A DNA stretch of 64,000 bases from Comamonadaceae bacterium ALPHA2B (GTDB taxonomy: Bacteria > Pseudomonadota > Gammaproteobacteria > Burkholderiales > Burkholderiaceae_C): positions 62,001 through 126,000 of the forward strand of contig SCOE01000001.1 of assembly GCA_005503065.1 (NCBI GenBank). Direction: 5' to 3'. Positions 44,691 through 63,198 of the stretch are shown in pieces. The notes beneath the pieces are model-generated. The model did no database searches and was not told the DNA's origin. It was given only the letters and a program-made list of their open reading frames with translations. Each line of letters begins with the position of its first letter. The first letter of the stretch is position 1. Made by a program: the position numbers and the translations under genes.

Positions 44691-45890
44691 TCAGTGGCCA
44701 GCCGGAACGACCACCGGCACCTCGGTCGCCGGCGGCGTGTTGCGGCTGCGTCCGGCCCGCACGATGCCGTCGATCATCACCATGCCCACGCCGGGGATGT
44801 CGCCCAGCTGGACACTCTCGAGCAGCGTCTTGCCGGCCGTGTGCTGCGCGCGGTCCATGAAGACGAAGTCTGCCGCGCGGCCGACCTCGACCAGGCCGCA
44901 GTTCAGGTTGCGCATGCGCGCCGTGTTGCCGGTCGCGAAGCAGAACACCACCTCGGCCGGGATGTCGGCCATCGACGAGATCAGCGACACCATGCGCAGG
45001 ATGCCCAGCGGCTGCACGCCCGAGCCGGCCGGGCCATCGGTGCCGAGGATCACGCGGTGCGGGCACTTCAGCTCGATCGCGGCGCGCGCGGCGCCGATGG
45101 CCACGCGCTCGTTGCCGTTGTGCACGATCTCGATGCCGCGCGTGCTCTGCTCGCACAGCTCGCACACGTGCTTGAGCGGCAGCGAGGTGTGGCCGCCGTT
45201 GATGTGGCCGATGATGTCGGCGTCGGCCTCCAGCACCGTGTCCTTGTCGATGTAGCCCGAGCCCGGCACCGAGGGGCCGCCCGTGTGGATGGTGCTCTGG
45301 ATGCCGTACTTGCGCGCCCAGGCCACCATCTCCTTGGCCTCGTAGCCGGCCTTCACCGTGCCCAGGCCCACCTCGCCGAGCAGGCCCACGCCGGCCTCGG
45401 CGAGCTCCTTGAAGTCGCTCTCGACCATGCCCTTCTCGATCACCGGCGCGCCGGCCAGCACCTTCACACCGCCGGGGCGGAAGGCGTCGAAGGCCCGCTG
45501 CGCGGTGATCGCCAGCGCCTTCAGTCCCACGATGTCCCTGGGCCGGCCGGGGTAGTGCACCTCGCCGGCCGAGATCATGGTGGTCACGCCACCGTTCATG
45601 CTCGACTCGATCCAGTTGAGCTGGCTCTGCCGCGGCGTCCAGTCGCCGGCCACCGGGTGCACGTGGCTGTCGATGAGGCCGGGCGCCACGCACACGCCCT
45701 TGGCGTCGATGACGGTCTTGGCGCCCTCGGTGTCGCAGTCCTTGAACTTGCCGACGGCCGTGATCAGCCCGTCGTTCACGACGATGGTGTCGGCATCGAG
45801 GATGGGCCGGTCGATGTCGCCCGAGAGCAGCAGCCCTATGTTCTGGATGACGACCTTGCCCGACTTGCCGCCGGTTGCGATTTCTGCCAT
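44691..45890 (-). CDS. ena: Enamidase (6-oxo-1,4,5,6-tetrahydronicotinate amidohydrolase)
   Basis: A 399-residue amidohydrolase. It begins IQNIGLLLSGDIDRPILDAD, the start style of Eubacterium barkeri enamidase. Metal ligands H76 and H78 lie in GLIDSHVHP; later ligands include EVGLGTVKAG, HTGGPSVPGS, HINGGHTSLP and GTDGPAGSG. The ending GIVRAGRSRNTPPA also fits. Enamidase opens the lactam of tetrahydro-oxonicotinate to ammonia and 2-formylglutarate. It is last in a minus-strand unit with fpr and a TetR gene and overlaps the TetR gene by 55 bases. The assignment rests on remembered family features plus the adjacent 6-hydroxynicotinate reductase gene. Confidence 0.82.
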   Translation of the reverse strand: MAEIATGGKSGKVVIQNIGLLLSGDIDRPILDADTIVVNDGLITAVGKFKDCDTEGAKTVIDAKGVCVAPGLIDSHVHPVAGDWTPRQSQLNWIESSMNGGVTTMISAGEVHYPGRPRDIVGLKALAITAQRAFDAFRPGGVKVLAGAPVIEKGMVESDFKELAEAGVGLLGEVGLGTVKAGYEAKEMVAWARKYGIQSTIHTGGPSVPGSGYIDKDTVLEADADIIGHINGGHTSLPLKHVCELCEQSTRGIEIVHNGNERVAIGAARAAIELKCPHRVILGTDGPAGSGVQPLGILRMVSLISSMADIPAEVVFCFATGNTARMRNLNCGLVEVGRAADFVFMDRAQHTAGKTLLESVQLGDIPGVGMVMIDGIVRAGRSRNTPPATEVPVVVPAGH

Positions 45891-46597
45891 GACTTGCTCT
45901 CTTCGTGAGGTGGGGTGTCGTTGTCGGCCGCGTCCTCGAGCCGCACGGTGCGCAGCACCGCCTCGATGACGAAGTCTTCCCAGTGCGCCACCTTGTCCGG
46001 CGCGTCCAGGGCCTCGTCCAGGAAGGTGGTCAGGGTGTAGCGGTTGGAGGTATAGAAGTAGCCCGAGGCCGCGATCAGCAGGTACACGTCGCGCGCCACC
46101 ACGTCGGCGCGGAACAGCCCCTGCGCCGCGCCTGCCGCCAGGATGTCCGCGATGATCGCCACCGCACGCGAGGAGTACTCGCGCGCCCGCACCGATCGGG
46201 CGATGTGCCGGCCCTTGTGCAGGTTCTCGGTGTTCAGCAGCGTGACGAAGTCGGGGTTGCGCCGGTAGTAGCCGTGCACGAAGCGGATCACCTCGGTGAG
46301 CGCCTCGACCGGCCGCGAGGCATCGAGCGCGATCGCCGCCTCGGCCTCGTCCATGCGCTGGTAGATGCCTTCGAGCACCGCGACGAACAGGCCTTCCTTG
46401 CTGCCGAAGTAGTAGTAGATCATCCGGTCGTACGACTTGGCCGCCTTGGAGATCTTCTCCACGCTGCCGCCGTCGTAGCCGTACTTCGCGAACACCTTGG
46501 TGGCCGCCTTCAGGATCGCGTCGCGCGTCGCCTGCGCCGCCGCCTCCCGCACGCCGGTCTTGCGCTGGGGCTTGGCGACGGTCTTGCGGGTGGTCAT
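45836..46597 (-). CDS. TetR-family regulator of the nicotinate cluster
   Basis: A 253-residue TetR protein with helix-turn-helix VFAKYGYDGGSVEKISKAAK, then SYDRMIYYYFGSKEGLFVAV. A basic 20-residue tail precedes it and a Ser/Arg-rich tail follows. The C-terminal 18 codons overlap the enamidase gene. Probably represses the cluster in the absence of a nicotinate-derived ligand; the palindrome at 47692 is a candidate site. Ligand and site are inference. Confidence 0.85.
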   Translation of the reverse strand: MTTRKTVAKPQRKTGVREAAAQATRDAILKAATKVFAKYGYDGGSVEKISKAAKSYDRMIYYYFGSKEGLFVAVLEGIYQRMDEAEAAIALDASRPVEALTEVIRFVHGYYRRNPDFVTLLNTENLHKGRHIARSVRAREYSSRAVAIIADILAAGAAQGLFRADVVARDVYLLIAASGYFYTSNRYTLTTFLDEALDAPDKVAHWEDFVIEAVLRTVRLEDAADNDTPPHEESKSWQKSQPAASRARSSSRT

Positions 46598-46627
46598 GCG
46601 GTGTGGATGCGAATGCGGGAGCGGGTA

Positions 46628-46736
46628 CCGAACGCAGAGGGCGCAGAGAACTCGCAGAGGTCGCAGAAGAAGACCATCGAAGATTCGGATGTCTTCTCTG
46701 CGCCCTTTGCGGACCCTTTGCGCCCTCTGCGTTCGG
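46628..46736. repeat. Family B long hairpin repeat, copy B2
   Basis: Left end CCGAACGCAGAG (46628-46639), right end CTCTGCGTTCGG (46725-46736): perfect 12-base terminal arms with GGGCGCAGAG/CTCTGCGCCC inside. It is the cleanest copy of the family and separates fpr from the TetR gene. Confidence 0.9.
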
Positions 46737-46750
46737 CGGTCCGCATTCGG

Positions 46751-47524
46751 CTACTTCTCCGCGAAGGCGCGCTCGACGACGTAGTCGCCCGGCGTGCTGG
46801 TGTTGCCTTCCTTGAAGCCGCGGCCTTCGAGGATTTCCTTCATGTCGGTCAGCAGACCGGGGCTGCCGCAGATCATCACGCGGTCCTCGGCCGGATTCAG
46901 CGGCGGCAAGCCCAGGTCGTCGGTGAGCTTGTTGGTGGTGATGAGGTCCGTGATGCGGCCCTGGTTGCGGAACTCCTCGCGCGTCACCGTGGGGTAGTAC
47001 AACAGCTGCTTCTCGATCATCTCGCCCAGGAACTCGTGCTTGGGCAGGTGGTCGACGACCAGGTCGTGGTAGGCCAGCTCGTCGACCTGGCGCACGCCGT
47101 GCACCAGGATGACCTGCTCGAACTTCTCGTAGGTTTCCGGGTCGCGGATCACCGACATGAAAGGCGCCAGGCCGGTGCCGGTGCCGAAGAGGTACAGGCG
47201 CTTGCCGGGCAGCGTGTAGTCGATCAGCAGCGTGCCCGTGGGCTTGCGGCCGACGATGATCGTGTCGCCGACCTGGATGTGCTGCAGGCGCGAGGTGAGG
47301 GGGCCTTCCTCGACCTTGATGCTGAGGAACTCCAGGTGCTCCTCGTAGTTGGGGCTGACGATGCTGTAGGCGCGCAGCAGGGGCTTGTTGTTGACCTTCA
47401 GGCCGATCATCGTGAAGTGGCCGTTGGAGAAGCGCAGCGCCGGGTCGCGCGTGGTCGTGAAGGTGAACAGGCGGTCCGTCCAGTGGTGGACCGAAAGAAC
47501 GCGTTCTTCGCTGAAGGCACTCAT
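46751..47524 (-). CDS. fpr: Ferredoxin-NADP(+) reductase
   Basis: A 257-residue FAD enzyme. The flavin motif RAYSIVSPNYEE (R-x-Y-S), the NADP-site GTGTGLAPFMS and the ending DYVVERAFAEK mark the bacterial subclass. It exchanges electrons between NADPH and ferredoxin or flavodoxin. It is divergent from the 6-hydroxynicotinate reductase gene across a 301-base region, and could supply the reduced ferredoxin that this reductase needs. A housekeeping role in oxidative-stress defence is the alternative. Confidence 0.93.
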   Translation of the reverse strand: MSAFSEERVLSVHHWTDRLFTFTTTRDPALRFSNGHFTMIGLKVNNKPLLRAYSIVSPNYEEHLEFLSIKVEEGPLTSRLQHIQVGDTIIVGRKPTGTLLIDYTLPGKRLYLFGTGTGLAPFMSVIRDPETYEKFEQVILVHGVRQVDELAYHDLVVDHLPKHEFLGEMIEKQLLYYPTVTREEFRNQGRITDLITTNKLTDDLGLPPLNPAEDRVMICGSPGLLTDMKEILEGRGFKEGNTSTPGDYVVERAFAEK

Positions 47525-47825: not shown

Positions 47826-49451
47826 ATGACTGAACACACCAAGACCGACGGGCTGCCGAGCATGGACCTGCCCGTCGTGCCCGATGCGGCGGGCCTGGGC
47901 TACGGCAAGTCGCCGGTGCGCAACGAGCGCATGAGCGCCGCCAAGGTCGAATGCAACGCCTGCCCCGTGCTCTGCCAGATTTCCGAGGGCCGCACGGGCG
48001 CCTGCGACCGCTACGCCAACCGCGCCGGGGTGCTGGTGCGCGTCGACCCGGTGGTGCTGCTGCGCCGCGAGCTGGCCACCGAGGCGCCGGCGCTGGTCTC
48101 CTTCGCACGCCCCGGCGCCGAGGGCGAGGCGGCGGACGCCGGCGTGCCGGCCGACTGGAACGGCGACCTGCTGCACGCCAACGAGGTCTTCGTCACCGGC
48201 ATCGGCGCCTCCACCACCTACCCCGACTACAAGCCGGCGCCTTTCATCGTCGGCTCCAAGGCCGACGGCGTCGACATGGTGACCGTGGTGACCGAAGGCA
48301 TCTTCAGCTACTGCAGCGTGAAGGTGAAGATCGACACCGACCGCTTCCTCGGCGCCGAGCAGGCCAACGTTCGCTACAAGGGCGAGGTGGTGGGCCACGT
48401 GACCACGGCCGAATACGGCTCGCAGATGCTCTCGCTCGGCGGCGTGCACCACCTCACCGGCGGCAGCAAGAAGGAAGGCCGCATGACGCTGGAGCTCATG
48501 CAGAACCTGTGCAACAAGCAGGCGGCCGAATGCACCATCGACGGCGGGGCCAGCCTCGTCATCCAGGCGGGCAGGGCGCCCATCGTCAACGGCGTCGAGG
48601 AGCAGCGCATGCGCGTGGGCTGCGGTTCGGCCACCGTGGGCATCTTCGCCAAGCAGCTGCTCGAACTGGCCGACGAGGTGGTGGTGGTCGACGACCACAT
48701 CACCGGCGTGCTCACCGAGCACCAGGCCGGCCGCTGCCTGTCGATGGCACCCTCGGGCATCCAGATGCGCGGGCGCAAGTCCACGCCGGGGCGCTACTTC
48801 CAGGTCGCCAACCCCGGCAGCGGCTGGGGCGGCACCGACATCGCCGACCCGCTGTCCATCATCGAGGGCTGGGAACCCGGCGTCGCCAGGCCCGGACTTC
48901 GCCTGCTCATGACCTCCACCACCGGCGAGCAGGCGCAGTGGTACGTGCTCGACGACAACCTGCAACCCATCGAGCAGCCCATGCCGCCCGCGGTGCAGCG
49001 CGTGGTCGACCGCATCGGCGAGAACTGCGAGCCGTCCCTGTGCACCGTGCTCTTCCTCGGCGGCGCGGGCGGCAGCCTGCGCGCCGGCGTCACCGAAAAT
49101 CCGATCCTTCTCACGCGCGCCATCAAGCAGGCGATGGTCAACGTGACCTGCGGTGGCGCGCCGGCCTATGTGTGGCCGGGCGGCGGCATCACCGTCATGG
49201 TCGACGTGATGCGCATGCCCGACAACAGCTTCGGCACCGTGCCCACGCCGGCCATCATCGCGCCCATCGAGTTCAGCATGCGCCTGGACGATTACGCGGC
49301 GCTCGGCGGCCACGTCGACCATGTCATGCCGCTCGGCAAGGCGCTGGCCCGCGGCGCCTGGCAGGACGACGGCGCCCCCACGGCGCGTGAGTGGCGCCGC
49401 GCGGACGGCGTCAATCCGTGGCCGCTGGGACATGGCCCCATGCTGGGCTGA
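47826..49451 (+). CDS. hnr: 6-hydroxynicotinate reductase
   Basis: A 541-residue protein resembling 6-hydroxynicotinate reductases, which use reduced ferredoxin to make 6-oxo-1,4,5,6-tetrahydronicotinate. An Fe-S site is suggested by C43, C46, C50 and C60 (VECNACPVLCQISEGRTGAC). Later segments include GIGASTTYPDYKPAPFIVGS, GSKKEGRMTLELMQNLCNKQ and the Gly-rich ISMG-like turn GGAPAYVWPGGG. A DHITGVLT stretch at 290-297 resembles, but does not match, flavinylation motifs. It heads the plus-strand unit and is divergent from fpr. Assignment depends on family recall supported by the NicAB and enamidase neighbours. Confidence 0.8.
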   Translation: MTEHTKTDGLPSMDLPVVPDAAGLGYGKSPVRNERMSAAKVECNACPVLCQISEGRTGACDRYANRAGVLVRVDPVVLLRRELATEAPALVSFARPGAEGEAADAGVPADWNGDLLHANEVFVTGIGASTTYPDYKPAPFIVGSKADGVDMVTVVTEGIFSYCSVKVKIDTDRFLGAEQANVRYKGEVVGHVTTAEYGSQMLSLGGVHHLTGGSKKEGRMTLELMQNLCNKQAAECTIDGGASLVIQAGRAPIVNGVEEQRMRVGCGSATVGIFAKQLLELADEVVVVDDHITGVLTEHQAGRCLSMAPSGIQMRGRKSTPGRYFQVANPGSGWGGTDIADPLSIIEGWEPGVARPGLRLLMTSTTGEQAQWYVLDDNLQPIEQPMPPAVQRVVDRIGENCEPSLCTVLFLGGAGGSLRAGVTENPILLTRAIKQAMVNVTCGGAPAYVWPGGGITVMVDVMRMPDNSFGTVPTPAIIAPIEFSMRLDDYAALGGHVDHVMPLGKALARGAWQDDGAPTAREWRRADGVNPWPLGHGPMLG

Positions 49452-49461
49452 CGGGGCGGCC

Positions 49462-50361
49462 GTGGCAGCGACGCGTGCCCTGCTCGACGGCGGGCGCTGG
49501 CATTTCCAGCACGGCCCGATGGACGTCGTGCTGCAGGCCGAGGGCGAGCCGCAGGCCGTCGCGGCCGCGCATGCCGAGGCCTGGGCGCGCTTCGTGCCGT
49601 TGCTCGACGAGCTCGTGGCCGAGCTGCCGCTGCTCAAGCAGCCCATCGCGGCCGGCGCCGTGCCGGCCGGCCCGGTGGCCCGCCGCATGTGGGACGCGTG
49701 TGCGGTGCACGCGCCGCTCTTCATGACGCCGATGGCGGCCGTCGCCGGCGCGGTCGCGCAGGAACTGATCGCCGCCTACCGCCGTGCCGGCATCGTGCGC
49801 GCCTGGGCCAACAACGGCGGCGACATCGCCTTCCACCTGGCGCCCGGTACGTCGGCACGCGTGGGGCTGTACGCCGACCTGGCGCGCTTCGACCCGGCCG
49901 ACGCCGCGGCCCTGCGCACCGATGGCCAGTTCGACGTGCATGCCGCCCAGCCCGTGCGCGGCGTGGCCACGAGCGGCTGGCGCGGCCGCAGCTTCTCGCT
50001 GGGCATCGCCGACAGCGTGACCGTGCTCGCCGCGACCGCGGCGGGCGCCGACGCCGCGGCCACCGTCATCGCCAATGCCGTGGACGTGTCGCACCCGGAC
50101 ATCCGCCGCCTGCCGGCCAGCGAATGCAAGGACGGCAGCGACCTGGGCGACACGCCTGTCACGGTGGAAGTCCCGACCCTGCCGCCCCAGGTCGTCGCAC
50201 AGGCACTGGATGCGGGCGCGCGGCGCGCCCGCGCGGTGCAGGCGGCCGGACACGCCTTCGCCGCGATACTCGTTTGCCAGGGGCAATGGCGACTTGTGCA
50301 GCCCTTAAGCTCGGCGTCCGGCGAGGCCGGGCAGCCCGCACTTGGTTCAGTATTTGCTTAA
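49462..50361 (+). CDS. UPF0280 (ApbE-superfamily) protein
   Basis: A 299-residue protein from GTG 49462; ATG 49432, overlapping hnr by 20 bases, is an alternative. The family start is visible in DGGRWHFQHGPMDVVLQAEG, with NNGGDIAFHL, VATSGWRGRSFSLGIADSVT and the C-terminal DLGDTPVTVEV. UPF0280 proteins share the fold of ApbE flavin transferases. Its place directly after hnr suggests cofactor attachment or maturation of that flavoenzyme. That is inference; no biochemical function is established. Confidence 0.82.
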   Translation: MAATRALLDGGRWHFQHGPMDVVLQAEGEPQAVAAAHAEAWARFVPLLDELVAELPLLKQPIAAGAVPAGPVARRMWDACAVHAPLFMTPMAAVAGAVAQELIAAYRRAGIVRAWANNGGDIAFHLAPGTSARVGLYADLARFDPADAAALRTDGQFDVHAAQPVRGVATSGWRGRSFSLGIADSVTVLAATAAGADAAATVIANAVDVSHPDIRRLPASECKDGSDLGDTPVTVEVPTLPPQVVAQALDAGARRARAVQAAGHAFAAILVCQGQWRLVQPLSSASGEAGQPALGSVFA

Positions 50362-50383
50362 CGAAAAGCAAGGCATCCTTTCC

Positions 50384-51028
50384 ATGATCGACATCCGACG
50401 CGTCTTCACCCAGGTCGAGACCATCCACCACGAGTTCGGCCCGCGCGCCGCGACGCCGCTGGTGCGTGGTGCGATCGCCGCGGTGCTGACCAATCCCTTC
50501 GCAGGCCGCTACGAGCCCGACATCCTGCCCATGATGGACCTGCTGGAGCCGGTGGGCGTCGACATGGCGCACCGGCTGCATGCCGCGATGGACGTGCCGC
50601 TCGATCGAATCGCCACCTACGGCAAGGGCGCCATCGTCGGCGCCGCCGGCGAACTCGAGCACGGCGCGCTGTGGCACGTGCCCGGCGGCTACGCGATGCG
50701 CGAGCTGCTGGGCTGGAAGGGCGACCGTGCGGCGTACAAGGCCGGCACCGTCGACGAGAAGAAGACCGGCCAGCCCGGCAACGCACTGTCGATCGTGCCC
50801 TCGACCAAGAAGGTCGGCCCGCCGGGCGCCGCGCTCGACGTGCCGCTCACCAACATCAACGCCAGCTACGTGCGCGGCCAGTTCGACGCCATCGAGGTGC
50901 GCGTGCCCGGTGCGCCCGAATCGGACGAGATCGTCTTCATCCTCGCCATGAGCACCGGCTACCGCGTGCACGATCGCGTGGGTGGCCTGCGCGCCGAGAA
51001 CATCGCCCAGTGGGACGGGCTGCGGTGA
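50384..51028 (+). CDS. DUF1185 'amino acid synthesis' family protein, first copy
   Basis: A 214-residue protein of the AA_synth family. Its shared features with the next paralogue are IAAVLTNPFAGRYEPDI, ATYGKGAIVGAAGELEHGAL, ALDVPLTNINASYVRGQFDA and VGGLRAENI. No catalytic residue is established; conserved Lys, His, Glu and Asp in the YGKG/ELEH segment are candidates. It begins 23 bases after UPF0280. Probably a metabolic enzyme acting after enamidase, by position only. Confidence 0.82.
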   Translation: MIDIRRVFTQVETIHHEFGPRAATPLVRGAIAAVLTNPFAGRYEPDILPMMDLLEPVGVDMAHRLHAAMDVPLDRIATYGKGAIVGAAGELEHGALWHVPGGYAMRELLGWKGDRAAYKAGTVDEKKTGQPGNALSIVPSTKKVGPPGAALDVPLTNINASYVRGQFDAIEVRVPGAPESDEIVFILAMSTGYRVHDRVGGLRAENIAQWDGLR

Positions 51029-51113: not shown

Positions 51114-51701
51114 ATGATGTCAGTCGATATTCGCAAGCTGGTGGTGCAGGTGGACGAAACGCGCAAGGAGATGGGCCGGGTCATCGACCCGCCCACGCGC
51201 CGCGCCGTCGCGATCGCCGTCATCGCCAACCCCTACGCCGGCCGCTACAGCGAGAACCTCGACGAGCTGATCGCCATCGGCGAGGAGCTCGGCGCGTTGC
51301 TGGGCCAGAAGGCCGTGAAGGCGCTGGGCATCGAGCCCGGCCAGGCCCAGAGCTACGGCAAGGCCGCGATCGTCGGCGAGGGCGGCGAGCTGGAGCATGC
51401 GGCCGCCATCCTGCATCCCAAGCTGGGCGCACCGCTGCGCGTGGCCGTCGAGAAGGGCGCGGCGCTGGTGCCGTCGGCCAAGAAGCGCGGCACGCTGGGC
51501 ACCGCCATCGACGTGCCCCTGGGCCACAAGGACGCCGCCTTCGTGCGCAGCCATTTCGACGCCGTCGAGGCACGCGTCGGCGATGCGCCGCGCGCCGGCG
51601 AGATCGTCGTGGCCGTGGCCGTGACCGACAGCGGCCGGCCGCTGCCGCGCATCGGCGGGCTGCAGGTGTCCGAAATCAAGGGCGAAGATGGTCTTCGCTG
51701 A
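51114..51701 (+). CDS. DUF1185 'amino acid synthesis' family protein, second copy
   Basis: A 195-residue paralogue of the preceding protein: IAVIANPYAGRYSENLDELI, SYGKAAIVGEGGELEHAAAI, GTAIDVPLGHKDAAFVRSHF and IGGLQVSEI. It lacks about 15 residues present between these blocks in the first copy. The pair may form a hetero-oligomer or catalyse successive steps. ATG 51114 or 51117, with GAAGGA upstream. Function unknown. Confidence 0.82.
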   Translation: MMSVDIRKLVVQVDETRKEMGRVIDPPTRRAVAIAVIANPYAGRYSENLDELIAIGEELGALLGQKAVKALGIEPGQAQSYGKAAIVGEGGELEHAAAILHPKLGAPLRVAVEKGAALVPSAKKRGTLGTAIDVPLGHKDAAFVRSHFDAVEARVGDAPRAGEIVVAVAVTDSGRPLPRIGGLQVSEIKGEDGLR

Positions 51702-51719: not shown

Positions 51720-51832
51720 CGAACGCAGAGGTCGCAAAGAATCCGCGGAGGGCGCAGAGAAAGCCAAAAAAGGAATTTCTTCTGTCTTCTCTGCGCCCTC
51801 TGCGTAGTTTTTGCATTTCTTCTGCGTTCGGC
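51720..51832. repeat. Family B long hairpin repeat, copy B4
   Basis: Left end CCGAACGCAG, right end CTGCGTTCGG, with GGGCGCAGAGAA/TTCTCTGCGCCC as a strong inner pairing. It lies between the second DUF1185 gene and the binding-protein gene and could reduce read-through or protect transcript ends. Confidence 0.85.
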
Positions 51833-51870
51833 TGTCCGAATTTCCTGTCGAGTTTTTCAAGGAGTCTCCA

Positions 51871-53076
51871 ATGAATGCACTGCGTCCCGCCTTCACCGTC
51901 GCCGCGCTCGCTGCGCTGCTGGCGCCTGCCGTCCACGCCCAGGGCGTGATCAAGATCGGCGAAGTCAACAGCTACAAGGCGCAGCCCGCCTTCCTCGAGC
52001 CCTACAAGAAGGGCATGGAACTGGCGGTGGACGAGATCAACGCCGCTGGCGGTGTGAACGGCAGGAAGATCGAGCTCATCACGCGCGACGACAACGCCAA
52101 CCCCGGCGATGCGGTGCGCATGGCCGAGGAGCTGGTCTCGCGCGAGAAGGTCGACATCCTGGCCGGTGCCTTCCTCTCGAACACCGGCCTGGCGCTGGCC
52201 GACTTCGCCAAGCAGAAGAAGTTCTTCTACCTGGCCGGCGAGCCGCTCACCGACAAGATGACCTGGCAGGGCGGCAACCAGTACACCTTCCGCCTGCGCC
52301 CCGGCACCTACATGCAGGCTGCCATGCTGGTGCCCGACGCGGCCAAGCTCAAGAAGAAGCGCTGGGCCATCGTCTATCCCAACTACGAGTACGGCCAGTC
52401 GGCCGTGGCTGCCTTCAAGCAGCTGCTCAAGGCGGCGCAGCCCGACGTCGAATTCGTCACCGAGCAGGCCACCCCGCTGGGCAAGGTCGATGCCGGCAGC
52501 GTCGCGCAGGCCCTGGCCGATGCCAAGCCGGACGCGATCTTCAACGTGCTTTTCGGCGCCGACCTGTCGAAGTTCGTGCGGGAAGGCAACACCCGCGGCC
52601 TCTTCAAGGACCGTGAAGTGGTGAGCGTGCTCACCGGCGAGCCCGAGTACCTCGACCCGCTGAAGGACGAGGCGCCCAACGGCTGGCTGGTGACGGGCTA
52701 CCCGTGGTACGGCATCACCACGCCCGAGCACAAGAAATTCGAGCAGGCCTACCAGGCCAAGTTCAAGGACTACCCGCGCCTGGGCTCGGTGGTCGGCTAC
52801 AGCATGATCAAGTCGGCCGCCGCCGGCGTGGCCAAGGCCAACAGCACCGATTCCGACAAGCTCGTCGCGGCCTTCAAGGGCCTGCAGGTCGACACCCCCT
52901 TCGGCAAGATCAGCTACCGCGCCGAAGACCACCAGTCGACCATGGGCGCCTTCGTCGGCCGCACCAAGAACGAGGGCGGCAAGGGCGTGATGGTGAACTA
53001 CACCTACTTCGACGGCGCCGACGCGCGCTTCCAGCCCCCCGCGGCCGACGTCAAGAAGTCCCGCGCCGCGGATTGA
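51871..53076 (+). CDS. Branched-chain-type ABC transporter substrate-binding protein
   Basis: A 401-residue type I periplasmic binding protein. The signal peptide is cleaved near residue 23 (AVHAQ). The mature fold starts VIKIGEVNSYKAQPAFLEPY, then GMELAVDEINAAGGVNGRKI, as in LivK/AmiC-like receptors. AAGGAG precedes the ATG. With the permease and ATPases downstream it makes a high-affinity importer. Given the cluster, nicotinate, 6-hydroxynicotinate or nicotinamide is a more likely ligand than leucine. Ligand inferred. Confidence 0.92.
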   Translation: MNALRPAFTVAALAALLAPAVHAQGVIKIGEVNSYKAQPAFLEPYKKGMELAVDEINAAGGVNGRKIELITRDDNANPGDAVRMAEELVSREKVDILAGAFLSNTGLALADFAKQKKFFYLAGEPLTDKMTWQGGNQYTFRLRPGTYMQAAMLVPDAAKLKKKRWAIVYPNYEYGQSAVAAFKQLLKAAQPDVEFVTEQATPLGKVDAGSVAQALADAKPDAIFNVLFGADLSKFVREGNTRGLFKDREVVSVLTGEPEYLDPLKDEAPNGWLVTGYPWYGITTPEHKKFEQAYQAKFKDYPRLGSVVGYSMIKSAAAGVAKANSTDSDKLVAAFKGLQVDTPFGKISYRAEDHQSTMGAFVGRTKNEGGKGVMVNYTYFDGADARFQPPAADVKKSRAAD

Positions 53077-55214: not shown

Positions 55215-55987
55215 GCACCGCAACACCGCTGCTGCAGGTCAGCAACCTCGGCAAGTCCTTCGGCGGCGTGAAGGCCGTCGACGGCATCACCTTCGACCTC
55301 GCCGCCGGCGAGCTGCTGGCCCTGATCGGCCCGAACGGTGCCGGCAAGTCGACCACCTTCAACATGGTCAACGGCCAGCTGCAGGCCGACCAAGGCTCGA
55401 TCCGGCTCGACGGCACCGAGCTCGTGGGCAAGCGTCCGCGCGACATCTGGCGCCTCGGGGTGGGCCGTACCTTCCAGATCGCCGAAACGTTCTCCTCGCT
55501 CACCGTGGTCGAGAACGTGCAGATGGCGCTGATCTCGCACGACCGCAAGCTGTTCTCGATGTGGAAGCCCGCCGCCGAACACAGGCGCGACGAGGCGCTG
55601 GCCCTGCTCGACCAGGTCGGCATGAAGGCGCAGGCCGACCGGCCCTGCAGCGTGCTGGCGTACGGCGACGTCAAGCGGGTCGAACTCGCCATCGCCATGG
55701 CCAATTCGCCCAAGCTGCTGCTGATGGACGAGCCCACCGCGGGCATGGCGCCCAAGGAGCGCAATTCGCTCATGGCGCTGACCAAGCAGCTGGTGGTCGA
55801 CCGCGGCCTGGCGGTGCTCTTCACCGAGCACAGCATGGACGTCGTCTTCGCGTACGCCGACCGCATGATCGTGCTGGCTCGCGGCCGCCTCATCGCGCAG
55901 GGCAAGCCGCTGGAGATCCGCGACCACCCGAAGGTGCAGGAGGTCTACTTCGGCACAGGCAAGACCTTCGAGAAGGCGGCGGCATGA
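55211..55987 (+). CDS. ABC transporter ATP-binding protein (LivG type)
   Basis: A 258-residue ABC ATPase. Walker A GPNGAGKST is at 40-48, Q-loop in RTFQIAETF, signature LAYGD (LivG subclass), Walker B LLLMDEPTAGM, and switch His in FTEHSMDVV. The ATG overlaps the permease stop. It is separated from the LivF-type gene by repeat B5. Confidence 0.93.
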   Translation: MSTATPLLQVSNLGKSFGGVKAVDGITFDLAAGELLALIGPNGAGKSTTFNMVNGQLQADQGSIRLDGTELVGKRPRDIWRLGVGRTFQIAETFSSLTVVENVQMALISHDRKLFSMWKPAAEHRRDEALALLDQVGMKAQADRPCSVLAYGDVKRVELAIAMANSPKLLLMDEPTAGMAPKERNSLMALTKQLVVDRGLAVLFTEHSMDVVFAYADRMIVLARGRLIAQGKPLEIRDHPKVQEVYFGTGKTFEKAAA

Positions 55988-56002: not shown

Positions 56003-56122
56003 CCGAACGCAGAGGGCGCAAAAGTTGCGCGGAAGCCGCAAAAGAACAGCCAGAAGAGGTTCTTGATTCTCTTTCCGCGCCCTCTGCGAAACCTTTGCGT
56101 CCTCTGCGTCCTCTGCGTCCGG
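56003..56122. repeat. Family B long hairpin repeat, copy B5
   Basis: Left end CCGAACGCAGAGGGCGC, right end CCTCTGCGTCCTCTGCG ending CCGG. The right arm has a duplicated CCTCTGCGT unit. It lies between the two ATPase genes of one transporter, splitting a normally tight pair. Confidence 0.85.
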
Positions 56123-56146
56123 ATATCCGCTTTCAGGATTTTTGAG

Positions 56147-56881
56147 ATGAGCCTTCAAGACACATTGCTGGAAGCCAAATCCCTGTGCGCCTGGTACGGC
56201 GCCGCGCAGATCCTCTACGACGTCGACCTGGAGGTGCGGCGCGGCGAGGTGGTGGCGCTCATGGGCCGCAACGGGGCCGGCAAGTCCACCACGCTCAAGG
56301 CCCTGATGGGCATGCTGGCCAAGCGGCGCGGCGCGATCCGCTTCCTGGGCCACGACATCTCGAAGACCGAGCCGCACCACGCGGCGCGCCTGGGCCTGGG
56401 CTTCGTGCCCGAGGACCGGCGCGTGTTCACCGACCTCACGGTGATGGAGAACCTCGAGGTGGGCCGACAGGCTGGCCGCAAGTGGTCGGATGGGGGCGAT
56501 GCGCCACTGTGGACGCCCGAGAAGCTGTTCAAGCTCTTCCCCAATCTCGGCGAGATGCCCCACCGCCCGGGCGGCCGCATGAGCGGCGGCGAGCAGCAGA
56601 TGCTCACCGTGGCGCGCACGCTGATGGGCAACCCGTACCTGGTGCTGCTGGACGAGCCCTCGGAGGGCGTGGCGCCGGTCATCGTGGAGCAGATGGCCAA
56701 CATGATCCTGGAGCTGAAGGCACAGGGCGTGTCGATCCTCCTTTCCGAGCAGAACATGCACTTCGCCGAACTGGTCTCCGACCGCGCCTACGTGCTCGAG
56801 AAGGGCCAGATCCGATATGCCGCCAGCATGGCCGAGCTGGCAGCCAACGAGGACGTGCGACGCGCCTACCTGAGCGTGTGA
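56147..56881 (+). CDS. ABC transporter ATP-binding protein (LivF type)
   Basis: A 244-residue ABC ATPase with Walker A GRNGAGKST (40-48), GFVPEDRRVFTDLTV, signature MSGGEQQ, Walker B LVLLDEPSEG and switch residues LLSEQNMHFA, where Gln-Asn replaces the usual His as in LivF proteins. ATG 56147 directly follows repeat B5. Completes the importer. Confidence 0.92.
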   Translation: MSLQDTLLEAKSLCAWYGAAQILYDVDLEVRRGEVVALMGRNGAGKSTTLKALMGMLAKRRGAIRFLGHDISKTEPHHAARLGLGFVPEDRRVFTDLTVMENLEVGRQAGRKWSDGGDAPLWTPEKLFKLFPNLGEMPHRPGGRMSGGEQQMLTVARTLMGNPYLVLLDEPSEGVAPVIVEQMANMILELKAQGVSILLSEQNMHFAELVSDRAYVLEKGQIRYAASMAELAANEDVRRAYLSV

Positions 56882-56939: not shown

Positions 56940-57662
56940 ATGCAGATCCCGCAACGCCGTCAGTTCCTTCAGGCCGCCGCCGCATTCGGCGCGGCCGGCC
57001 TCGCGCCCACCCTGTGGGCCGCCGGCAAGATCAAGCCCGGCCCCAAGGCCGCGCTCATCGTGGTCGATGTGCAGAACTGCTTCGTCGACGGCGGCACGCT
57101 GCCGGTCAAGGGCGGTGCGGAGGTGGTGCCGCTCATCAACAAGCTGGCCGAGAGCTTCGACAACGTCGTCGTCACGCAGGACTGGCACACGCCTGGCCAT
57201 GCCTCCTTCGCCAGCGCGCATGCGGGCCAGAAGCCCTTCTCCAGCATCAAGCTCGACTACGGCAACCAGGTGCTGTGGCCCGACCACTGCGTGCAGGGCA
57301 CCGACGACGCGGCGCTGCACAAGGACCTGAAGCTGCCCACCGCGCAGCTCATCATCCGCAAGGGCTTCAACAAGGGCGTGGACAGCTATTCCGCTTTCGA
57401 GGAAGCCGACCGCAAGACCGTCACCGGCCTGGCCGGGTACCTCAAGGCGCGCGGCATCAAGACCGTCTATGTCACCGGGCTGGCAACCGACTTCTGCGTG
57501 GCCTGGACCGCGCTCGATGCACGCAAGGCCGGCTTCGAGGCCTACGTGATCGAGGACGCCACGCGCGCCATCGACCTCAACGGCTCGCTGGCCAAGGCCT
57601 GGAAAGACATGCAGGCCAAGGGCGTCAAGCGCATCCAGTCCGCCGACATCGCCACTGCCTGA
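56940..57662 (+). CDS. Tat-exported nicotinamidase (PncA-like)
   Basis: A 240-residue cysteine hydrolase of the nicotinamidase/isochorismatase family. The catalytic triad is visible: Asp in IVVDVQNCFVDGG, Lys in IIRKGFNKGVDS, and Cys in GLATDFCVAWTALDA. Metal ligands are in DWHTPGHASF. Unlike cytoplasmic PncA it starts with a twin-arginine signal (RRQFLQAAAAFGAAGL), so it should deamidate nicotinamide to nicotinate in the periplasm. It starts 59 bases after the LivF-type gene, giving nicotinate to the importer. Confidence 0.88.
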   Translation: MQIPQRRQFLQAAAAFGAAGLAPTLWAAGKIKPGPKAALIVVDVQNCFVDGGTLPVKGGAEVVPLINKLAESFDNVVVTQDWHTPGHASFASAHAGQKPFSSIKLDYGNQVLWPDHCVQGTDDAALHKDLKLPTAQLIIRKGFNKGVDSYSAFEEADRKTVTGLAGYLKARGIKTVYVTGLATDFCVAWTALDARKAGFEAYVIEDATRAIDLNGSLAKAWKDMQAKGVKRIQSADIATA

Positions 57663-57678
57663 AGGAGCCGGGCCACCC

Positions 57679-58839
57679 ATGACTTCCATTTCCAGGCGGC
57701 GCACGCTCGCCGCGGGCGCCGCCGCGCTCGCCTTCGGCCCGGCGCTGCTGCGAGGCGCCCGTGCCGAGAACGGCGTCGCCGATGGCGTCATCCGTCTCGG
57801 GCAGTCGGCCGTGTTCAGCGGCCCCGCGCAGGACTTCGGCATCGACTACCGCGCCGGCATCCAGCTGTACTTCGACCGGCTCAACAAGGCGGGCGGCGTC
57901 CATGGCCGGCGCGTCGAGCTCGTGTCGTACGACGACGTCTACGAGCCGGCGAAGACGGCCGCCAACACCACGCGCCTGATCGAGCAGGACAAGGTCTTCG
58001 CGCTCACCGGCTACGTCGCCACCGGCAACCTGGTGGCGGCCATGCCCCTGTGCGAGAAGGCCGGCGTGCCGATGTTCGCGCCGCTGGTGGGCACCTCGTC
58101 CTTCCGCACCAGCGTCAACCGGCTGCTGTTCCACGTGCGCGCGGGCTATGACCTGGAACTGCGCAAGATCATCAGCCACCTCTCGACCATCGGCATCCAG
58201 TCCATCGCCGTGGTGTTCCAGGACAGCGCGTTCGGCAAGTCCAACCTCGCGACCTGCGAGCAGCTCGCGGCCGACTTCAAGGTCAACGTGGTGCAGAAGC
58301 TGCCGATGGCCATCGCCGCGACCGATGCCAAGGACGTGGTGGCGGGCCTCAAGGCGGCATCGCCCGGCGCGGTGGTGATGATCATGGCCGGCCGCATGGT
58401 CGACGTCTTCATCCGCGACTACCGCGCGAGCGGGTCCGGCGCCCAGCTCTACACGCTGTCGGTGGGCATCACCGACGCCAAGGGCTCGGCCCAGCGGCTC
58501 GAAGGCAAGCTCGCCGGGCTGGTCACGGCCAGCATCGTGCCGCCGCCGCAGGCGCTGCGCGTGCCCATCGTGGCCGACTACCAGCGCGACCGCGCGGCCT
58601 TCGGCCAGAAGATCGACAGCTACACGGCGCTCGAGGGCTACATCGTCGGCCGCGTCATGGCCGAGGGCCTGCGGCGCGGCGGCCCGGCGCTCACGCGCGA
58701 CAGCTTCATCGCCGGCCTGGAGGGCATCGGGCGCGCCAGCTTCGGCGAATTCCCGGTCGAGTACAGCGCGCGCAACCACAACGGCTCGACCTTCGTCGAC
58801 CTGGAGATGTACACCGGCGATGGGCAGTTGCGACGCTAG
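57679..58839 (+). CDS. Second type I ABC substrate-binding protein
   Basis: A 386-residue periplasmic binding protein with a twin-arginine-like signal (SRRRTLAAGAAALAFGPALL, cleavage near residue 32). The mature start is IRLGQSAVFSGPAQDFGIDY, then RAGIQLYFDRLNKAGGVHGR as in LivK-like receptors. It is unlike the first receptor at 51871 in detail, so the importer may use two receptors with different ligands, or this one serves a sensor. The last 20 bases overlap nicA. Confidence 0.9.
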   Translation: MTSISRRRTLAAGAAALAFGPALLRGARAENGVADGVIRLGQSAVFSGPAQDFGIDYRAGIQLYFDRLNKAGGVHGRRVELVSYDDVYEPAKTAANTTRLIEQDKVFALTGYVATGNLVAAMPLCEKAGVPMFAPLVGTSSFRTSVNRLLFHVRAGYDLELRKIISHLSTIGIQSIAVVFQDSAFGKSNLATCEQLAADFKVNVVQKLPMAIAATDAKDVVAGLKAASPGAVVMIMAGRMVDVFIRDYRASGSGAQLYTLSVGITDAKGSAQRLEGKLAGLVTASIVPPPQALRVPIVADYQRDRAAFGQKIDSYTALEGYIVGRVMAEGLRRGGPALTRDSFIAGLEGIGRASFGEFPVEYSARNHNGSTFVDLEMYTGDGQLRR

Positions 58840-59347
58840 TCCCGGGCAAGCGGCGGCGCCGGGCGCCGGCGGCTCCGCGCCCGTGCTGGCGCTGGAGGTG
58901 AACGGCCGCGCGGTGTCGGTGTCCGTCTCGCGCGAAGCCACGCTGCTGCATGTGCTGCGCAACGATCTGGGCCTCAACGGCCCCAAGTACGGCTGCGGCC
59001 TGGGCCAGTGCGGCGCCTGCACCGTGCATGTGGACGGGGTCGCCGCCCGGGCCTGCGTGATTCCCGCGCACGGCGTGGCGGGCCGATGCATCACCACCCT
59101 GGAAGGCCTGGGGTCGCGCCACGGTTTCCACCCTGTGCAGCAGGCCTTCGAACGCGCCCAGGCCGCGCAGTGTGGCTACTGCCTCAACGGCATGGTGATG
59201 CAGGCCGCGGCGCTGCTGGCCCGTGAGGCCCGCCCGTCGCCGGCGCGCATCCGCGCGGAGCTGTCGGGCAACCTGTGCCGCTGCGGCACCCACATCGAGA
59301 TCCTGCGTGCCGTGGAAGACGCCGCCGCGCGGCTCGCTTCGGCATGA
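58820..59347 (+). CDS. nicA: Nicotinate dehydrogenase small (2Fe-2S) subunit
   Basis: A 175-residue protein with two [2Fe-2S] clusters as in molybdenum hydroxylase small subunits. The plant-type cluster uses C59, C64 and C67 in YGCGLGQCGACTV and a later Cys; the second uses C118, C121, C153 and C155 (QCGYC and NLCRC). A Gly/Ala-rich 22-residue N-terminal extension is extra. It overlaps the preceding gene by 20 bases and nicB by ATGA. With nicB it should hydroxylate nicotinate at C6, as in Pseudomonas putida. Confidence 0.88.
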   Translation: MGSCDASPGQAAAPGAGGSAPVLALEVNGRAVSVSVSREATLLHVLRNDLGLNGPKYGCGLGQCGACTVHVDGVAARACVIPAHGVAGRCITTLEGLGSRHGFHPVQQAFERAQAAQCGYCLNGMVMQAAALLAREARPSPARIRAELSGNLCRCGTHIEILRAVEDAAARLASA

Positions 59348-62300
59348 GCCTTCCCATGCGTGCCGGCCAGCCGCGCAGCCGTGCCGACTTCCTGGCGGCC
59401 GAGGGTGTGCTCGTCGTCGTGCGTCCGACGCCGCCCGCGCCGCCGCCGGCCCAGGGCCAGCCGGCCGCGGTGCCGGGCAATCCCGCCGAGGGCGACGAGG
59501 TGCTGCTGGCCGTGTGGGACGACGGCAGCGTCACCGCCCTGAACGGCCATGTGGACCTGGGCACCGGCATCCGCACCGCGCTGGCCCAGATCGTCGCCGA
59601 GGAACTGGATGTGCCGCTGGCCGCGGTGTGCATGGTGCTCGGCGACACGGCGCGCGCGCCCAACCAGGGCGGGACCATTGCCAGCGCTTCGATCCAGATC
59701 CATGCGCAGCCCCTGCGGCTGGCTGCGGCCCAGGCGCGCGCCTGGCTGCTGGCGCGTGCTGCGGCGCGGCTCGGGGTGCCCGCCGCGTCGCTGCGCATCG
59801 TCGACGGCGTGGTGCAGGCGGGCGATGCCGACGGCCTGCCGCTGGCTGCGCTGGCGGCCGGCCAGCGCACGGTGCTCACGCTCGACACCGCCGCGCAGGT
59901 CAAGCGCACCGAGGACTACCGCCTCGTCGGCACGCCGCAGCCCCGCGTCGACATTCCCGCCAAGCTGTCGGGCGAACTGGTGTTCGTGCACGACATGCGG
60001 CTGTCCGGCATGTTGCACGGCCGCGTCGTGCGGCCGCCCTACGCGGGCGCCGACCATGGCGACTTCGTCGGCAACACGCTGGAATCGGTGGACGAATCGT
60101 CCATCGCCCACATCCCCGGCATCCGCGGGGTGGTCGTGATCCGCGACTTCGTCGGCATCGTGGCCGAGCGCGAGGAGCATGCCGAGCAGGCGATGCGCGA
60201 GCTGCGCGTGCGCTGGAAGCCCTGGCCCGGCATGCCGGACCTGAACCATCCCGACAAGGTGGCGCAGGCCATCCGCGACAACCCCGCCACGCAGCGCCTG
60301 CTGGTGGACGAGGGCGACGTCGATGCGGCCCTGGCCGGCGCCGGCGACGCGATGCGCCGCACCTACCTGTGGCCGTACCAGCTGCATGCCTCCATCGGCC
60401 CCTCGTGCGCCGTCGCGCATTGGCTGGAGGAGCCAACTGCGCCGAGCCCCCGATCCGCAGGATCGGCCGCCCCGGCTGGGCCGGGGCCAGGGGCGAGCGC
60501 CCCCTCGGGGGGCAGCGGACCGCGCGAAGCGGGGGAGCGTGGGCGCGCGCGCCTGCGCGTTTGGGCCGGGTCCCAGAACCCGCATGTCCTTCGCGCCGAC
60601 CTCGCGAAGCTGATGGGCGTTCAGGACCTCGAGGTCGACGTCGTGCGCATGGAGGCCGCCGGCTGCTACGGCCGCAACGGCGCCGACGACGTGGCGGCCG
60701 ATGCGGCACTGCTGGCGCGCGCCGTCGGAGCGCCGGTGCGCGTGCAGCTCACGCGCGAGCAGGAGCACGCGTGGGAGCCCAAGGGCACGGCGCAGCTCAT
60801 GACGGTGGCCGGTGCGCTGTCGCCCGAGGGCGGCATCGGCGCCTACGACTTCGAGAGCTCCTACCCCAGCAACGGCGCCCCCACGCTGGCGCTGCTGCTC
60901 ACCGGCACCGTCGATGCGCAGCCGCATGCCTACGAGATGGGCGACCGCACCGCGCGCCCGCCCTACGCCTACGACCACCTGCGGGTGAAGGTCAACGACA
61001 TGGCGCCCATCGTGCGCGCCTCGTGGCTGCGCGGCGTGTCGGCGCTGCCCAACTCCTTCGCGCACGAGTCCTTCATCGACGAACTGGCCACGGCCGCGGG
61101 CGTGGACCCGGTGCAGTTCCGCCTGCGCCACCTCGACGACCCGCGCGCCATCGAGCTCGTGCAGGCCACCGCGCAGAAGGCCGGTTGGCGCATGCGCACG
61201 GGACCGCAGGAGAACGTCGATGGCGGCCTCGGGCCAGGGGGCGACATCCTTTTTGGTCAGGGGTTCGCCTATGCGCGCTACATCCACAGCAAGTGGCCCG
61301 GCTTCGGCGCCGCCTGGGCCGCCTGGGTGGCCGATGTGGAGGTCAACCGCAGGACAGGCGAGGTGCATGTGCGCCGCGTGGTCGTCGGCCATGATGCGGG
61401 CCTGACCATCAACCCGGCGGGTGTCGAGCACCAGGTGCACGGCAACGTGCTGCAGACCACCAGCCGCGCCCTGAAGGAGCAGGTGCAGTTCGCACCGGCG
61501 CCGCCCGCCGACACCGATGCCGCCAAGGAGCAGCTGCCCGGCGTGCTGCCGCAGGGCGTGGTCGCGAATCGCGAATGGGGCAGCTACCCCATCCTCAGCT
61601 TCCGCGAGGTGCCGGTCGTCGAGGTGCTGCAGATGCCGCGCCCCGGCGAGCCGCCGCTGGGTGCGGGCGAGTCGGCCTCGGTGCCGGGCACGGCGGCGAT
61701 CGCCAATGCGATCTTCGATGCGACAGGCGTGCGTTTTCGCGCGCCGCCCTTCACGCCCGAGGTGGTGCGGGCTGCGCTCAATCCGCTGCCACCTGCGGGT
61801 GAGGCCGCGGCATCTGACGAGGCGCCGCAGGCGCTGCCCCTTCCGGCACACGGGCTGCCGGCCGATGCACCGCTGCCGCGCCGCAAGGGCCTGTGGGCGA
61901 CGGGCGCCGCCCTGGTCTTCGGCGGCCTCGGCGCCATCGCCGGCCTGCTCGGCTGGCGACCCGCCATCGCACCCGTGTCCTTCAGTGCACCCGCCTACAG
62001 CGCCGAGACCATCGAGCGCGGCCGGCAACTCGCCGCGCTCGGCGATTGCGTGGTGTGCCACACCGCGCCCGGCGGTGTGCCCAATGCCGGTGGCCGCGCG
62101 ATGGAAACGCCCTTCGGCACCCTCCACACCACCAACCTCACGCCCGATGCCGAGACGGGCCTGGGCCGCTGGTCCTTCACGGCCTTCCAGCGCGCGATGC
62201 GCGAGGGCATCTCGCGCGACGGCCGGCACCTCTACCCGGCCTTCCCGTACACCGCCTTCGCCAAGACCGGCGACGACGACCTGCAGGCGCTGTACGCCTA

Positions 62301-63198
62301 CCTGCAGTCGCTGCCCGCGGTGAAGGCACCGACGCCGGACAACGACCTGCGCTTCCCCTTCAACCTGCGGCCGCTGATGGCGGGCTGGAACGCGCTGTTC
62401 CACGACGCCACGCCCCACGTGCCCGTTGCGACGCAGAGCGCGGAGTGGAACCGGGGCGCCTACCTCGTCAACGGCCTGGGCCATTGCGGCGCCTGCCACA
62501 CGCCCCGCAACGCGCTGGGGGCGGAGCAGGGCGGCAGCGCCTTCCTCGCCGGCGCCACCATCGACGGCTGGGACGCGCCTGCGCTCACGTCGCTGTCGAA
62601 GTCGCCCGTTCCCTGGGATGCCGATGCGCTGTACGCCTACCTGCGCCACGGCCATTCGCCGCGGCACGGCGTTGCCGGCGGGCCGATGGCGGAGGTGGTG
62701 CGCGAACTGCAGCAGGTGTCGGATGCCGACGTCCGCGCCATGGCCACGTACCTCGCGTCCTTCAACCCCGCGCCGGCGCCCGATCCGCAGCGGCAGGCGC
62801 AGGCCATGGTGCAGGCCGCCGCGGCGCGGCAGGACCAGCTGCTCGGCGCGCCGCAGCGCATGTTCGAGATGGCCTGCGCCGCCTGCCACCACGACAAGAC
62901 AGGCGCCGGCGGCCCGACGCTGCTGGGCGTGAACACGCCGCTCGCGCTCAACAGCCAGCTGTCCGGCGACCGGCCCGACAACCTCATCCGCACCATCCTC
63001 GACGGCGTGCGCGAGCCCGCGACGAAGGACCTCGGCTTCATGCCCGCCTTCCGCAACGCCCTGAGCGACGCGCAGATCGCCGAACTGGCCGGCTACATGC
63101 GCGCGCGCTTCGCGCCGCAGGCTGCACCGTGGACCGACCTGCCGGCGCAGGTCGCCCGCGTGCGCGCGGCGCCGGGCCACGGCGCGCCGGGGCGCTGA
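59344..63198 (+). CDS. nicB: Nicotinate dehydrogenase large subunit with tri-haem cytochrome c domain
   Basis: A 1284-residue NicB-like protein. The molybdopterin domain (about 30-830) has GHVDLGTGIRTALAQIVAEE, GGTIASASIQ and near its end GAGESASVPGTAAIANAI, where the catalytic Glu is expected. A hydrophobic anchor lies at about 850-872. Three haem c sites follow: C902 (CVVCH), C1048 (CGACH) and C1178 (CAACH). Electrons thus leave to a periplasmic cytochrome chain. Residues about 364-402 are an in-frame insert of GC-rich repeat sequence absent from the family consensus I know. P. putida NicB is about 100 residues shorter. Confidence 0.87.
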   Translation: MSLPMRAGQPRSRADFLAAEGVLVVVRPTPPAPPPAQGQPAAVPGNPAEGDEVLLAVWDDGSVTALNGHVDLGTGIRTALAQIVAEELDVPLAAVCMVLGDTARAPNQGGTIASASIQIHAQPLRLAAAQARAWLLARAAARLGVPAASLRIVDGVVQAGDADGLPLAALAAGQRTVLTLDTAAQVKRTEDYRLVGTPQPRVDIPAKLSGELVFVHDMRLSGMLHGRVVRPPYAGADHGDFVGNTLESVDESSIAHIPGIRGVVVIRDFVGIVAEREEHAEQAMRELRVRWKPWPGMPDLNHPDKVAQAIRDNPATQRLLVDEGDVDAALAGAGDAMRRTYLWPYQLHASIGPSCAVAHWLEEPTAPSPRSAGSAAPAGPGPGASAPSGGSGPREAGERGRARLRVWAGSQNPHVLRADLAKLMGVQDLEVDVVRMEAAGCYGRNGADDVAADAALLARAVGAPVRVQLTREQEHAWEPKGTAQLMTVAGALSPEGGIGAYDFESSYPSNGAPTLALLLTGTVDAQPHAYEMGDRTARPPYAYDHLRVKVNDMAPIVRASWLRGVSALPNSFAHESFIDELATAAGVDPVQFRLRHLDDPRAIELVQATAQKAGWRMRTGPQENVDGGLGPGGDILFGQGFAYARYIHSKWPGFGAAWAAWVADVEVNRRTGEVHVRRVVVGHDAGLTINPAGVEHQVHGNVLQTTSRALKEQVQFAPAPPADTDAAKEQLPGVLPQGVVANREWGSYPILSFREVPVVEVLQMPRPGEPPLGAGESASVPGTAAIANAIFDATGVRFRAPPFTPEVVRAALNPLPPAGEAAASDEAPQALPLPAHGLPADAPLPRRKGLWATGAALVFGGLGAIAGLLGWRPAIAPVSFSAPAYSAETIERGRQLAALGDCVVCHTAPGGVPNAGGRAMETPFGTLHTTNLTPDAETGLGRWSFTAFQRAMREGISRDGRHLYPAFPYTAFAKTGDDDLQALYAYLQSLPAVKAPTPDNDLRFPFNLRPLMAGWNALFHDATPHVPVATQSAEWNRGAYLVNGLGHCGACHTPRNALGAEQGGSAFLAGATIDGWDAPALTSLSKSPVPWDADALYAYLRHGHSPRHGVAGGPMAEVVRELQQVSDADVRAMATYLASFNPAPAPDPQRQAQAMVQAAAARQDQLLGAPQRMFEMACAACHHDKTGAGGPTLLGVNTPLALNSQLSGDRPDNLIRTILDGVREPATKDLGFMPAFRNALSDAQIAELAGYMRARFAPQAAPWTDLPAQVARVRAAPGHGAPGR
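60432..60548. repeat. Family D GC-rich element inserted in frame in nicB
   Basis: About 117 bases (39 codons) with hairpins CCGATCCGCAGGATCGG, CCCCGGCTGGGCCGGGG and GCGCCCCCTCGGGGGGC, followed by a GCTTCGCGC-like block. It is the kind of sequence normally found between genes. It encodes Pro/Ala/Gly/Ser/Arg-rich residues and keeps the frame open. Confidence 0.75.

Follow-up and report, generated by a model that had tools for sequence, protein, structure and literature searches.

The nicotinate pathway of Azorhizobium caulinodans was reportedly the subject of work by Kitts in 1989 and 1992, and the nicotinate fermentation cluster of Eubacterium barkeri is said to have been described by Alhapel in 2006. 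In E. barkeri, the lower nicotinate pathway is fermentative and the 6-hydroxynicotinate reductase (Hnr) bears a covalent flavin, while the NicA/NicB-type dehydrogenase of Pseudomonas putida has a haem-c tail. A gene cluster for the reductive route through 1,4,5,6-tetrahydro-6-oxonicotinate (THON) was described in 2012 in Azorhizobium and Bradyrhizobiaceae, according to the accessible part of that paper (PMC3511419), and the same chemistry is described for E. barkeri and A. caulinodans in the accessible part of a second (PMC9304392); for the aerobic THON chemistry of A. caulinodans, both point to works that they cite. The nicotinate dehydrogenase of E. barkeri contains selenium, again as given in partial text. 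Here, we describe a catabolic cluster of 15 genes at positions 44691 to 63198 of a 64,000-nucleotide stretch of genomic DNA (contig SCOE01000001.1; the whole stretch is called the window below), which, judged from the families of its products, very probably serves the uptake and catabolism of nicotinamide and nicotinate by the THON route.

Like the cluster of Azorhizobium and Bradyrhizobiaceae, which in the accessible text belongs to aerobic hosts and has genes for the first three steps, the window encodes an Hnr-family protein, an enamidase, a dehydrogenase with Mo, 2Fe-2S, and haem c, and an importer, whereas its own host appears to be betaproteobacterial. Two proteins left unnamed in the available text on that cluster are likely UPF0280 and PF06684 proteins. 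The E. barkeri cluster has Hnr and the enamidase in common with the window, the latter matching the E. barkeri enzyme (PDB 2VUN) over nearly its full length, but the window has a haem-c NicAB and probably a glutaryl-CoA route. The nic pathway of P. putida KT2440 shares the NicA/NicB-type dehydrogenase with haem-c tail, but the source genome has no NicX match and no close full-length NicC. An initial annotation, made by a model from the letters of the DNA, had implied that joining aerobic and anaerobic chemistry in this way was new; that implication does not hold, given A. caulinodans and the cluster described in 2012 (PMC3511419, in its accessible part). The pathway is already known, and the new lead is UPF0280. 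No paper on such a cluster in betaproteobacteria was among the literature matches listed, a coverage that leaves most subscription journals outside.

Predicted enzymes of the reductive route

We favor the reductive route because the cluster holds a member of every enzyme family that this route requires as far as ring opening, and because NicX was not found in the assembly. In the proposed sequence of steps, nicotinamide would be deamidated to nicotinate in the periplasm, and NicA-NicB would convert nicotinate to 6-hydroxynicotinate, with the electrons reaching the respiratory chain by way of the haem-c domain. Hnr, supplied from NADPH by the ferredoxin reductase, would then reduce the ring to THON, and the enamidase would open that ring hydrolytically with deamination, yielding ammonia and 2-formylglutarate. 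Decarboxylation and oxidation of 2-formylglutarate would give glutarate, which would go on through glutaryl-CoA dehydrogenase. The same contig carries a GcdH homologue with 86% identity to the query used, which is consistent with the glutarate route known from Azorhizobium.

The putative enamidase matched the E. barkeri enzyme best in the PDB (E value of 3.1e-109, residues 11 to 390), the next PDB match being at 2.7e-6. In the alignment of the two proteins, the D-x-H-x-H, E, H, H, and D positions, which we take to be those typical of an amidohydrolase metal site, are identical. The Hnr homologue had no match in Pfam, NCBIfam, or the PDB at the thresholds used. Its homologues in named records carry the label 6-hydroxynicotinate reductase, and a protein of Bradyrhizobiaceae strain SG-6C is 42% identical to E. 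barkeri Hnr in the accessible text of PMC3511419; together, these support the assignment of the window protein as a putative Hnr. A CxxCxxxC...C cysteine cluster occupies its N terminus, and C43, C46, C50, C60, C163, C266, and C401 were invariant in 16/16 and 39/39 sequences. The ferredoxin-NADP reductase type flavoprotein (FPR), which scored 137 bits against NCBIfam NF008178 and so fell below the cutoff of 390, is the probable electron feed for Hnr.

The NicA-type subunit has two [2Fe-2S] domains (Fer2 and Fer2_2), and the NicB-type subunit combines Mo-cofactor domains with three CxxCH motifs, so that the predicted architecture (Mo, 2Fe-2S, haem c) is that of a respiration-linked nicotinate dehydrogenase. 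When aligned with a protein annotated as NicB near hnr in Neorhizobium, the window NicB was identical at 651 of 1,284 alignment positions (51%). The nicotinamidase matched PDB 2WT9 at an E value of 5.9e-87 and scored 180 bits against NCBIfam NF008623, whose cutoff is 174; its N terminus carries a Tat-type signal, RRQFL, which suggests that nicotinamide may be deamidated in the periplasm before nicotinate is imported. Import itself would fall to the genes between 51811 and 56881, which encode a binding protein, a fused permease, and two ATPases.

The initial annotation had named the dehydrogenase with its haem c tail, the nicotinamidase, the Hnr-like protein at 47826, the enamidase-like amidohydrolase at 44691, the ferredoxin reductase, and the importer, and each of these was recovered by the domain, profile, structure, or homologue matches given here and in Table 1. 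It had overlooked the TetR regulator, UPF0280, the two PF06684 proteins, and the second substrate-binding protein. Its reading of nicotinate catabolism as reductive and hydrolytic finds support in homology, with the right enzyme families clustered and NicX not found.

Conservation of the gene set

We searched 398 genomes of the phylum, the source genome included, and 150 genomes of the family to which the window belongs, together with named loci, which are the best 80 of at least 590 in genome contigs and many of which end at contig ends. Hnr was found in 32 of the phylum genomes and in 24 of the family genomes, the latter figure suggesting that aerobic reduction of the pyridine ring would be common in the family and no curiosity of Azorhizobium. 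At an E value of 1e-80 or lower, the enamidase was present in 22 family genomes, comprising 21 of the 24 with Hnr and 1 of the 126 without it, the last at 40% identity. The gene set is conserved beyond chance, as seen in the 80 named loci, where matches near Hnr were obtained for UPF0280 in 79, for the second and first PF06684 copies in 76 and 73, for the permease in 72, for the TetR regulator in 70, for the enamidase in 68, for the two ATPases in 66 and 64, for the first binding protein and NicA in 64 each, for the FPR in 61, for NicB in 57, for the nicotinamidase in 32, and for the second binding protein in 14.

Among the same named loci, the closest clusters were those of Xenophilus azovorans (Hnr 89% identical), Pseudacidovorax, and Variovorax. 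As far as can be told from these neighbors, the host, a bacterium of soil type, is a Comamonadaceae-type betaproteobacterium, in agreement with the betaproteobacterial origin first proposed. The hnr gene also occurs on 26 plasmid records. In a Comamonadaceae leaf isolate (L142, CP099606.1), the cluster lies on a 159-kb plasmid and has the gene order of the window minus the nicotinamidase and the second binding protein.

UPF0280, a companion of Hnr

UPF0280 scored above its cutoff in exactly the 32 of 398 phylum genomes that have Hnr. Besides the source genome, the phylum sample has 31 genomes with Hnr, and UPF0280 was near Hnr in 31/31 of these, with its gene 7 to 488 bases downstream of hnr. 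Profile and model comparisons gave the ApbE flavin-transferase fold for UPF0280, and the window protein is, as modeled, of the ApbE type. With PF02424, the family of the ApbE/Ftp/FmnB flavin transferases, the window protein had no hit (hmmscan, E value of 0.001 or lower), and matches below the cutoff, at E values of about 5e-4, fell on UPF0280 genes of other genomes. The active site of Vibrio cholerae ApbE comprises Ser241, His257 as the general base, and Asp285 (PMC12052999); by our reading, Ser241 and Asp285 lie in its TSG and ADA motifs. S171 and D197 of UPF0280 align with these two motifs and were invariant in 42/42 sequences.

We propose that UPF0280 loads the Hnr flavin or attaches it covalently. 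The fold and the TSG/ADA..T motifs that UPF0280 has in common with ApbE, Ftp, and FmnB are in line with such a role, but two features speak against it. The segment carrying the catalytic His257 of ApbE is deleted in the UPF0280 alignment, and the ApbE target motif, D-x-x-[ST]-G-A-[ST], occurred in 0/16 and 0/39 Hnr sequences. UPF0280 also differs from these flavin transferases in that no N-terminal signal was seen in the sequence by eye, no signal predictor having been used.

The same two features favor an alternative to which we give nearly an even chance, namely, that UPF0280 plays no part in attaching flavin and is a catalytic or structural partner whose ApbE/T-fold binds substrate, a nucleotide, or a metal. 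Weaker relatives of UPF0280, below the cutoff, are found in two methanogens, and a relative with a solved structure, 2O34, comes from Desulfovibrio, both of which fit that alternative as well. The proposed flavin role can be put in a fuller form, to which we assign a probability somewhat short of even. UPF0280, in its NF003322 branch, would be a cytosolic and divergent member of the ApbE fold with the sole job of installing or loading the Hnr flavin, using another base and another target site, and Hnr-UPF0280, usually with PF06684, would be a portable module for pyridone reduction that is paired with either an enamidase or an ATP-dependent HyuA/HyuB hydrolase. Because UPF0280 is linked one to one with Hnr, this unnamed protein family becomes directly testable.

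Variation in the ring-opening enzyme

For the 31 Hnr genomes that the phylum sample has besides the source genome, the surroundings of Hnr were available as stretches of 15.0 to 19.9 kb, with two stretches for one genome (G217). Near Hnr, the enamidase was found in 11 of these genomes, HyuA or HyuB in 8, both in none, and neither in 12. Fifty of the 80 named loci are longer than 21 kb, and of these, 48 had the enamidase, none had HyuA, and 2 had neither. Of the three family genomes with Hnr and no enamidase, two show HyuA, and the third stops at a contig end. An absolute alternation of the two enzymes was rejected, since in a shorter locus (L110:94-1518) the enamidase is accompanied by a HyuA relative, a distant one at 36% identity, and 12/31 of the phylum-sample stretches have neither.

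Hydantoinase genes, with no enamidase match, were present in seven Hnr-UPF0280 clusters, with HyuA and HyuB in three (L143, L144, and L145) and HyuA, close to where the stretch ends, in four (L148, L149, L151, and L153). HyuA and HyuB come immediately after the PF06684 gene or genes in Neorhizobium and Pleomorphomonas and after the importer in Fuscovulum. Hydrolases of the Hyu type are ATP dependent, and the simplest reading is that HyuA/HyuB is an ATP-dependent hydrolase that takes the place of the enamidase. The substrate of these clusters may differ from that of the window cluster. That enamidase and HyuAB alternate points to catabolism built from modules, and HyuAB may offer another means of opening the reduced ring.

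Weighing other substrates

Several observations count against assigning the window cluster to nicotinate. The link from the window Hnr to that of E. barkeri is indirect, through the SG-6C protein, and no ferredoxin was found in a scan that covered cluster frames of at least 90 amino acids. For NicB, the best PDB matches are subunits of the aldehyde dehydrogenase 8GY3, the cytochrome subunit for the haem part and the large subunit for the Mo part (E value of 3.1e-38), while the nicotinate dehydrogenase 3HRD comes second for the Mo part (E value of 4e-20), so the substrate of NicB is not fixed by sequence. In the Hyu-type clusters, the NicA match is at 40 to 48% identity in 6/8, at 54% in one, and absent in one; since a different Mo enzyme thus stands beside the same core in most of them, the relatives of Hnr may have different substrates. 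KpiC, 28% identical to the enamidase, is reported in the accessible part of PMC7356986 to be a ring-opening dioxygenase, and the enamidase family is therefore not bound to one reaction. For the lower pathway, GcdH was the only glutarate step searched for, and 2-formylglutarate decarboxylase is without an assigned gene. Finally, a NicX-like match occurs in 11 of the 32 genomes with Hnr, at 48 to 55% identity in two and at 34 to 36% in nine, so the reductive and oxidative routes are not exclusive in general.

The NicB matches and the separate activity of KpiC would suit a cluster that degrades another N-heterocyclic carboxylate, such as another pyridine or pyridone acid, with homologues of Hnr, the enamidase, and NicAB. 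So would the recurrence of the Hnr-UPF0280 core, usually with PF06684, beside other Mo enzymes and HyuA/HyuB in place of the enamidase, since a core with such varied partners is not tied to one partner set. We nevertheless regard another substrate as unlikely for the window itself, where the enamidase resembles the E. barkeri enzyme over nearly its full length and a nicotinamidase stands in the same gene row; moreover, strain SG-6C, reported with such a cluster, fully degrades nicotinate and 6-hydroxynicotinate (PMC3511419, in its accessible part).

That the organism instead uses the oxidative NicC/NicX route, with the reductive cluster as an accessory, is hardly credible, even with NicX-like matches in other Hnr genomes, because its genome had no NicX match at an E value of 10 or lower while the same query matched 33/398 phylum genomes at 1e-30 or lower, the source genome not among them. 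For NicC, the genome had no close full-length match in a search run with no positive control of its own. The best were two flavin monooxygenases at 32% and 36% identity (E value of about 2e-49), and NicC scores similarly against another enzyme of its family, tropone 2-monooxygenase (E value of 5e-56). A 33-residue piece, 61% identical to NicC (E value of 7e-4), lies in a 344-amino-acid frame at a contig end and is probably a common FAD-binding motif. A nicC/nicX set elsewhere, which the initial annotation had named as able to overturn its reading, was not seen in this assembly.

The PF06684 pair

The two PF06684 proteins of the window are 36% identical to each other by pairwise BLASTP. In the phylum sample, the family was present in 59/398 genomes, comprising 31 of the 32 with Hnr and 28 of the 366 without it, and it lay near Hnr in 30 of the 31 other Hnr genomes; the only one of the 32 with no PF06684 gene at all is G139 (L151). 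HcdD of 7-hydroxycoumarin degradation belongs to PF06684, and its homologue TgnF stimulates TgnE in trigonelline degradation, although efforts to demonstrate an effect of HcdD were unsuccessful, according to the accessible text of PMC7913881. The pathways of both proteins, as described there, involve ring breakdown, as would that of the window cluster, whereas the window has two tandem copies. As a guess, the pair might act on, or help with, the ring-opened formyl intermediate.

Gene inventory of the locus

The cluster occupies the part of the window that was studied here; the window has a GC content of 69%, and the genome is 6.0 Mb in 91 contigs. The enamidase, TetR, and ferredoxin reductase genes run on the minus strand, and all others diverge from them on the plus strand in the order Hnr, UPF0280, the two PF06684 proteins, the importer, the nicotinamidase, the second substrate-binding protein, and NicA/NicB (Table 1).

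Table 1. Open reading frames of the putative nicotinate cluster, with positions in the window
Product	Position	Strand	Evidence
Enamidase homologue (amidohydrolase)	44691..45890	-	PDB 2VUN, E 3.1e-109; Pfam PF01979
TetR-family regulator	45836..46597	-	Pfam TetR_N, TetR_C_29; match in 70/80 named loci
Ferredoxin-NADP reductase type flavoprotein (FPR)	46751..47524	-	Pfam FAD_binding_6, NAD_binding_1; match in 61/80 named loci
Hnr homologue	47826..49451	+	Homologues annotated 6-hydroxynicotinate reductase
UPF0280 protein, ApbE (flavin transferase) fold as modeled	49462..50361	+	
PF06684 (AA_synth, DUF1185) protein 1	50384..51028	+	Pfam PF06684, E 5.8e-63
PF06684 (AA_synth, DUF1185) protein 2	51114..51701	+	Pfam, E 1.3e-70; PDB 2QTP, E 2.2e-84
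Periplasmic substrate-binding protein, branched-chain amino acid (BCAA)-type ABC importer	51811..53076	+	Pfam Peripla_BP_6
Fused ABC permease, two BPD_transp_2 stretches	53247..55214	+	Pfam PF02653 twice
ABC ATPase 1	55211..55987	+	Pfam ABC_tran
ABC ATPase 2	56063..56881	+	Pfam ABC_tran
Predicted Tat-exported nicotinamidase	56940..57662	+	PDB 2WT9; NF008623; RRQFL signal
Second substrate-binding protein	57679..58839	+	Pfam Peripla_BP_6; match in 14/80 named loci
NicA-type [2Fe-2S] subunit, putative nicotinate dehydrogenase	58820..59347	+	Pfam Fer2, Fer2_2
NicB-type molybdopterin subunit, C-terminal tri-haem cytochrome c	59344..63198	+	Pfam MoCoBD_1/2, cytochrome c; three CxxCH

Downstream of the cluster, an open frame at 63311 to 64000 runs past the end of the window and had no NCBIfam match. 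The GC content at third codon positions (GC3) is of the coding type for most cluster frames. In a simple GC3 pick, an opposite-strand frame took the place of the two ATPase frames, which Pfam identifies as clear ABC ATPases.

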